From an uncultured Flavobacteriaceae bacterium (lineage in GTDB: Bacteria; Bacteroidota; Bacteroidia; Flavobacteriales; Flavobacteriaceae): 35,413 bases of DNA. The notes beneath the pieces were generated by a model, which made no database searches, had not been told where the DNA came from, and saw only the letters and a program-made list of their open reading frames with translations. Positions 1,970 to 2,347 of the stretch are shown here, piece by piece; positions within the stretch are counted from its first letter, which is position 1; each line of letters opens with the position of its first letter. Made by a program: the position numbers and the translations under genes. The stretch lies in contig CALKEO010000022.1 in assembly GCA_938088195.1 (NCBI GenBank), forward strand, positions 1 through 35,413. The letters are read 5' to 3'.

Positions 1970-2347
1970 ATGGATATTACAGGCAAGTTAAAGTTGATAA
2001 ATGAGACTAAAGAATATGGGTCAAATGGTTTTAAAAAAAGAGAAGTTGTTATTACAACTGAAGAACAATACCCACAAGATTTATTAATTGAATTTATTCA
2101 AGACAAGTGTGATCTTTTAAATTCATACCAAGTTGGTCAATCTGTTAAGGTGGATATTAATCTGAGAGGAAGAGACTGGGAAAGTCCACAAGGAGAAATT
2201 AAATATTTCAATTCTATCCAAGGATGGAGAATAGAAAAATTATTTTCTGACAATGATGATTCTACCATACCACCTGTTCCTCCAGCTGAAGCATTTGAGC
2301 CTGCAGATGAGATAAATAAAGAAGAGCCAGACGATCTTCCATTTTAG
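1970..2347 (+). CDS. DUF3127 protein with SSB-like C-terminal tip
   Basis: A 125-residue soluble protein recognised as the DUF3127 family of Bacteroidota, which to my knowledge has no established function. Residues 1-90 are a compact, strand-rich domain: MDITGKLKLI, KREVVITTEEQYPQ, GQSVKVDINLRGRDWESPQG, then IQGWRIEKL. This pattern of short strands with an aromatic-rich edge resembles an OB fold. Residues 97-125 form a proline- and acid-rich tail that ends EEPDDLPF. That tip closely resembles the acidic C-terminal tip of single-stranded DNA-binding protein (DDDIPF), used to recruit replication and repair partners. A nucleic-acid-binding role is therefore an inference. aat begins 5 bp downstream, so the two probably share a transcript. 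Confidence 0.88.
   Translation: MDITGKLKLINETKEYGSNGFKKREVVITTEEQYPQDLLIEFIQDKCDLLNSYQVGQSVKVDINLRGRDWESPQGEIKYFNSIQGWRIEKLFSDNDDSTIPPVPPAEAFEPADEINKEEPDDLPF

Follow-up and report, generated by a model that had tools for sequence, protein, structure and literature searches.

The stretch of DNA analysed here (the window, 35,413 nucleotides from an uncultured Flavobacteriaceae bacterium) encodes on its forward strand, at 1970..2347, a DUF3127 protein of 125 amino acids with an ATG start, whose last residues resemble the acidic tip of the bacterial single-stranded DNA-binding protein (SSB). The locus raises the question of what this family does in bacteria, and what it might do where SSB is missing. 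We regard it as quite likely that DUF3127 is a second, divergent, tip-bearing SSB family, to which the window protein would belong, and that it stands in for SSB in SSB-less lineages. The protein matches the Pfam model of DUF3127 (PF11325) over residues 3–89 (E 3.8e-30; 104.4 bits, cut-off 27) and, over its full length (residues 1–125), PHROG 4932, 'single strand DNA binding protein' (E 2.3e-45). PHROG 4932 and DUF3127 are the same family, the annotation being applied to phages and the chromosomal members being named DUF3127; an SSB role of the phage homologues is already annotated. The SSB model PF00436 was not listed among the Pfam matches of the window protein at E<=1 and did not reach its curated cut-off, and the protein is not classed under PF00436. 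Two other assignments were rejected, namely a cold-shock-domain protein (14.1 and 12.5 bits for NCBIfam CspD and CspE, against cut-offs of 115 and 120) and DUF5356 (15.3 bits against 26.4).

The preliminary description had proposed an SSB-like layout, a compact domain followed by a disordered linker and a tip, and the structural prediction agrees with it. In an AlphaFold2 model (single chain, input of 146 sequences), the block means of pLDDT are 90–96 for residues 1–90 and 57–68 beyond residue 90. The domain (residues 1–90; 1970..2239, forward strand, as are the parts below) consists of strands in the order of an OB fold with a single helix between the third and fourth long strands, and comparison with known structures identifies it as the OB fold of bacterial SSB. 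Of 1,114 Foldseek matches at E<=10, the 50 listed are all SSBs (best E 7.4e-7). VIA-align superimposes it on Salinibacter SSB with Z 12.1 and rmsd 2.1 over 90 residues, and on PriB (1woc) with Z 11.6 and rmsd 3.0 over 87 residues, a difference of less than 1 Z unit that amounts to a tie. The linker (residues 91–117; 2240..2320) is rich in proline and acidic residues, with low model confidence and higher column entropy. It is followed by the acidic tip EEPDDLPF (2321..2344), of which DDLPF (2330..2344) is the core, and the stop codon (2345..2347); the span singled out in the preliminary description, 2254..2347, corresponds to linker plus tip.

Sequence comparison also points to homology between DUF3127 and SSB. 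A profile of the DUF3127 alignment, searched against 177,635 PDB sequences, gave 13 matches at E<=1, 13 of 13 being SSBs; the best, Deinococcus SSB (2.4e-5), is the sum of two OB domains, and the best match to a single OB domain has an E of 0.012. With the tails removed, hhalign of DUF3127 against canonical SSBs gave a modest score (E 3.9e-4, probability 35%), compared with E 0.26 for reversed SSBs as a control, and a single-sequence phmmer search of PDB returned one weak SSB match (E 0.65). A viral-contig protein, L411, passes the cut-off of PF00436 (1.1e-10) and falls just below that of PF11325 (6.1e-6; 26.8 bits, cut-off 27). Cellular copies of DUF3127 that were read are mostly 111–137 amino acids long, and positions 21, 34, 70, 79, 80 and 86 are aromatic in at least 97% of the aligned rows. 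W70 (2177..2179) was aligned in the PDB profile search to the tryptophan of the R-T-R-K-W strand of SSB, which we take to be Trp-88 of E. coli SSB; all 157 cellular rows have W, Y or F in this column. Trp-88 of E. coli SSB is named as a base-stacking residue in the available part of a study of SSB (PMC3991886).

The claim that the DUF3127 protein ends in an SSB-like acidic tip was confirmed by comparison of its EEPDDLPF with the one PF00436 SSB in the window's own assembly, a protein of 141 amino acids ending in SDSDDLPF, the final five residues being identical. The pattern GAYGAYYTNCCNTTYTRR (D-D-L/F-P-F followed by a stop or TGG) has 2 sites in this assembly (1,528,229 bases, 79.87% complete); both read D-D-L-P-F-stop and are the ends of the DUF3127 gene and the canonical SSB gene, and the reversed pattern has 0 sites in the same assembly. 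The SSB gene (L002:1489-1914) lies directly after a mutY-like gene and is followed by a gene for a CNNM-type membrane protein, as these neighbours are named from sequence reading. The tips of DUF3127 and SSB were compared within 20 genomes, 12 of which were uninformative in that the SSB sequence was a short tipless paralogue. In the remaining 8, DDLPF is common to both proteins in 2 (G000 and G063) and the tips differ in 6 (G065, G078, G089, G158, G173 and G214), so that there is no close correspondence between the two tips. The short tipless PF00436 SSB, of 110–118 amino acids, is found in many genomes of the window's family (L044, L050, L051, L054 and others), where it usually accompanies a longer SSB.

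Is the tip kept among homologues behind a variable linker? PF11325 covers the domain only, so that the choice of homologues was blind to the tip. Among 80 distinct proteins (from PF11325 loci and the window), 61 end in DDLPF, 15 in a related acidic-hydrophobic-PF sequence, 2 in another PF and 2 in none of these. Each of the two tipless proteins is a second copy whose genome encodes a tipped one as well (L133 in G072 and L135 in G063, 102 amino acids each). Of at least 574 genome-contig loci, the best 80 were taken, a sample biased to close relatives, and all 80 end in DDLPF. In the pooled 157 distinct cellular proteins, counted as complete frames only and with sequences read for part of the matches, proline and phenylalanine stand at the end of 155, and the D, D and L of the tip are each kept in 145–146. 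Column entropy is 0.11–0.55 bits in the last five residues against 1.8–3.5 bits in the preceding 25. As a background, 1,101 further distinct cellular ORFs (at least 100 amino acids; mechanical, non-overlapping frames from the loci examined rather than proven genes) were scored: 2 end in PF, and 0 have an acidic-hydrophobic-PF tip. The conservation of the PF tip exceeds chance. Both checks proposed in the preliminary description, tip conservation behind a variable linker and an OB fold, turned out in its favour.

Across the phylum, SSB was found in 244 of 247 genomes and DUF3127 in 143. Together with the SSB of the window's own genome, these counts indicate that DUF3127 is normally accessory. 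Two of the three genomes without SSB (G122 and G314) have DUF3127, and no DUF3127 match was found in the third (G232). A conserved cellular replication operon was considered and rejected, the neighbours at 12 loci varying between lineages. In a single case, a DUF3127 gene of Bacteroides adjoins genes for the beta and epsilon chains of Pol III in a fosmid table, in the part of the source available (PMC4110020). At L089:1393-1755, the DUF3127 gene overlaps a downstream same-strand frame for an RNase_T-type exonuclease by about 10 bases. For F. psychrophilum, a further gene similar to the ssDNA-binding domain has been mentioned, with no function assigned and unnamed in the accessible portion of the paper, and it may or may not be DUF3127 (PMC3991886).

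More telling than the window itself is the distribution in other genomes, with DUF3127 retained in lineages in which no canonical SSB was found. Among 100 relatives, from genus to order, 95 have DUF3127 and 90 have SSB. When 70 relatives at least 90% complete are taken, SSB is found in 63, and the other 7 (G068, G071, G075, G081, G086, G092 and G095, from three families) all have DUF3127, which ends in DDLPF in each and is the only DDLPF-stop site found in each of these genomes. In family f16, which comprises reduced, presumably symbiont, genomes of 0.2–1.3 Mb, SSB passed the cut-off in 1 of 68 genomes (G399, 1.3 Mb), and DUF3127 was found in 64; two of the 4 without a DUF3127 match are 96% complete (20 and 8 contigs) and two are 72–73% complete. 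SSB passed the cut-off in 0 of 4 genomes of family f9 and in the single genome of family f12 it did not, this genome being one contig of 1.92 Mb. A search with TIGR00621 at E<=1 in 12 genomes outside f9 found nothing in 7 (G071, G075, G086, G095 and the genomes behind L273, L274 and L275), and the other 5 do have SSB. Absence is judged here by profile searches, which a very divergent SSB could escape. Sub-cut-off SSB matches in six genomes (G354, G362, G372, G068, G081 and G414; E 0.17–0.36), in frames of 318–714 amino acids, were treated as chance.

Some of these genomes can be named: L273 and L274 belong to Blattabacterium cuenoti and L275 to Ca. Bostrichicola ureolyticus. Their C-termini are shared with f16, which appears from this and from genome size to be an insect endosymbiont family and includes putative genomes of Walczuchella monophlebidarum and Uzinura diaspidicola. 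Of the 64 f16 copies, 50 were read: 43 end in DDLPF, one in DDFPF, one in DELPF and five otherwise. The five deviant copies come from genomes of 173–197 kb; one stops after the domain, one reads N and in three the end is altered behind an acidic run. In the symbiont genomes of 184–197 kb behind L450, L454, L455 and L456, the linker consists of long acidic or lysine-rich runs, and the tip is altered or missing in some. On balance we favour the view that a phage-type second SSB has displaced the housekeeping SSB and would be the sole replicative ssDNA-binding hub in Blattabacterium, the putative Walczuchella and Uzinura, related insect symbionts and two or more further lineages of the order; among its hosts, this group of symbionts would include cockroaches and scale insects. 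Walczuchella and Uzinura both have dnaE, and Uzinura is without dnaQ, dnaN and dnaX according to Table 3 of the portion available (PMC3971599). The word 'ssb' is absent from the main text of this paper and from that on the Blattabacterium Bge genome (PMC2768785). In the available parts of two further papers, ssb is mentioned for Baumannia only (PMC5592932) and Sulcia is not mentioned (PMC5016991).

The phage side of the family is extensive. The window protein matches 114 of 50,697 phage records, and among the matches listed the RefSeq versions are named 'single strand DNA binding protein', the original deposits being mostly 'hypothetical protein'. Relatives also occur on viral contigs, where at least 501 stretches encode them. 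In Nonlabens phage P12024L, the gene order is Erf annealase, YqaJ exonuclease, DUF3127, two small genes and primase. The frames on either side of each distinct viral copy, one upstream and one downstream, gave 301 neighbours, from which 146 were drawn at random; after 14 had been dropped by hand, mostly short or opposite-strand, 132 were scanned. YqaJ (Pfam) was found in 13 and the RecE-like exonuclease PHROG in 12, two overlapping sets, and the remainder include helicases, primases, HNH endonucleases and Erf. A search of the viral loci and their short flanks with the SSB profile found no canonical SSB besides L411.

How might such a protein work? The OB domain (residues 1–90) would coat ssDNA, and bases would probably stack on some of the conserved aromatics at positions 21, 34, 70, 79, 80 and 86. 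The flexible linker would present the D-D-L-P-F tip, and the tip, to judge from its identity with that of SSB, may dock in the pockets of replication and repair proteins that receive the tail of canonical SSB. The role of the SSB tail in docking partners is described in the accessible portion of a paper on SSB (PMC10164576). In most of the relatives searched, DUF3127 would work beside canonical SSB. In the SSB-less lineages, namely the Blattabacterium-type endosymbionts and two further families of the order, no other candidate was found, and DUF3127 is probably the general SSB. In Bacteroidota phages, it may be the phage's own SSB, acting within modules for recombination and replication.

Other explanations have to be weighed against this one. 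DUF3127 could be a specialised accessory SSB, active in recombination, DNA uptake or repair only and not general even in cells without SSB; the YqaJ, RecE-like and Erf genes beside the phage copies, and the coexistence of canonical SSB in most genomes, would suit such a role. This is nevertheless unlikely, in view of the presence of DUF3127 in 64 of 68 genomes of f16, a family in which 67 of 68 lack an SSB over the cut-off. Most accessory functions have been lost from genomes reduced to 0.2–1.3 Mb, and an SSB should be required for replication. Less probable still is a replication-restart factor like PriB, in which the SSB fold acts on primosome partners instead of coating ssDNA in bulk. The structural score for PriB is tied with that for SSB (Z 11.6 vs 12.1), but the tip is the most conserved part of DUF3127, and to our knowledge PriB has no SSB-type acidic PF tip. 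Moreover, the PDB profile matches are SSBs with no PriB among them, and a role like that of PriB alone would leave unexplained why DUF3127 is retained where SSB was not found.

The tip could also serve a mimic of the SSB tail, which competes for or titrates SSB partners while its domain has lost the ability to bind ssDNA. The final five residues are indeed the same as those of the host SSB, yet the six aromatic positions, each conserved in at least 97% of rows, tell against an inert domain, and a decoy would hardly be retained in the absence of an SSB with which to compete; we give this reading very little credence. As OB folds are common, a PF ending might even have arisen by coincidence on an unrelated OB protein, which is scarcely believable when 155 of 157 DUF3127 proteins end in PF against 2 of 1,101 background ORFs, and when the sequence and fold matches listed are SSBs. 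A second SSB family thus remains the explanation that we prefer.

Such a family can be set beside known systems. Bacterial SSB (PF00436/TIGR00621) has the same OB fold, flexible linker and acidic tip. On the other hand, DUF3127 lacks, by eye, the W-H-N stretch of canonical SSBs, is unmatched by PF00436 and is present in only part of the phylum. The gp25 protein of Pantoea phage AAS23 is described, in the available part of the paper, as an SSB with a DUF3127 domain match, although it also matches the canonical SSB domain model (PMC8004638). PriB has the SSB-type OB fold in common with DUF3127, the acidic PF tip being on the DUF3127 side. Among open-licence papers, no statement was found that chromosomal DUF3127 is an SSB or replaces SSB in endosymbionts. 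DNA replication and repair have a universal hub in SSB; if the present reading is true, many Bacteroidota would possess two such hubs, both presenting the same tail to partners. It would also help to explain DNA replication in endosymbionts that have no recognisable ssb, and the replacement of SSB becomes directly testable.

The tips of the viral copies were read in the same way. Of 156 distinct viral DUF3127 copies, 56 end in DDLPF, 69 in a related sequence, 6 in another PF and 25 in none of these; the viral background is 40 of 1,617 other ORFs of at least 100 amino acids ending in PF, 20 of them with an SSB-like tip. Among the 25, L202 and L232 have the tip plus one extra residue, and three end in DDLPW (L175, L176 and L177). 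L174 also ends in DDLPW, in a frame that reaches the end of the stretch. Viral Toprim proteins encoded near DUF3127 genes bear SSB-like tips, e.g. SDVPF and DEIPF (L142:6631-8475, L152:2777-4597, L172:1-1557, L268:3335-5221 and L244:9966-11657), and a weak DnaB-type helicase match is present in 3 of these 5 proteins.
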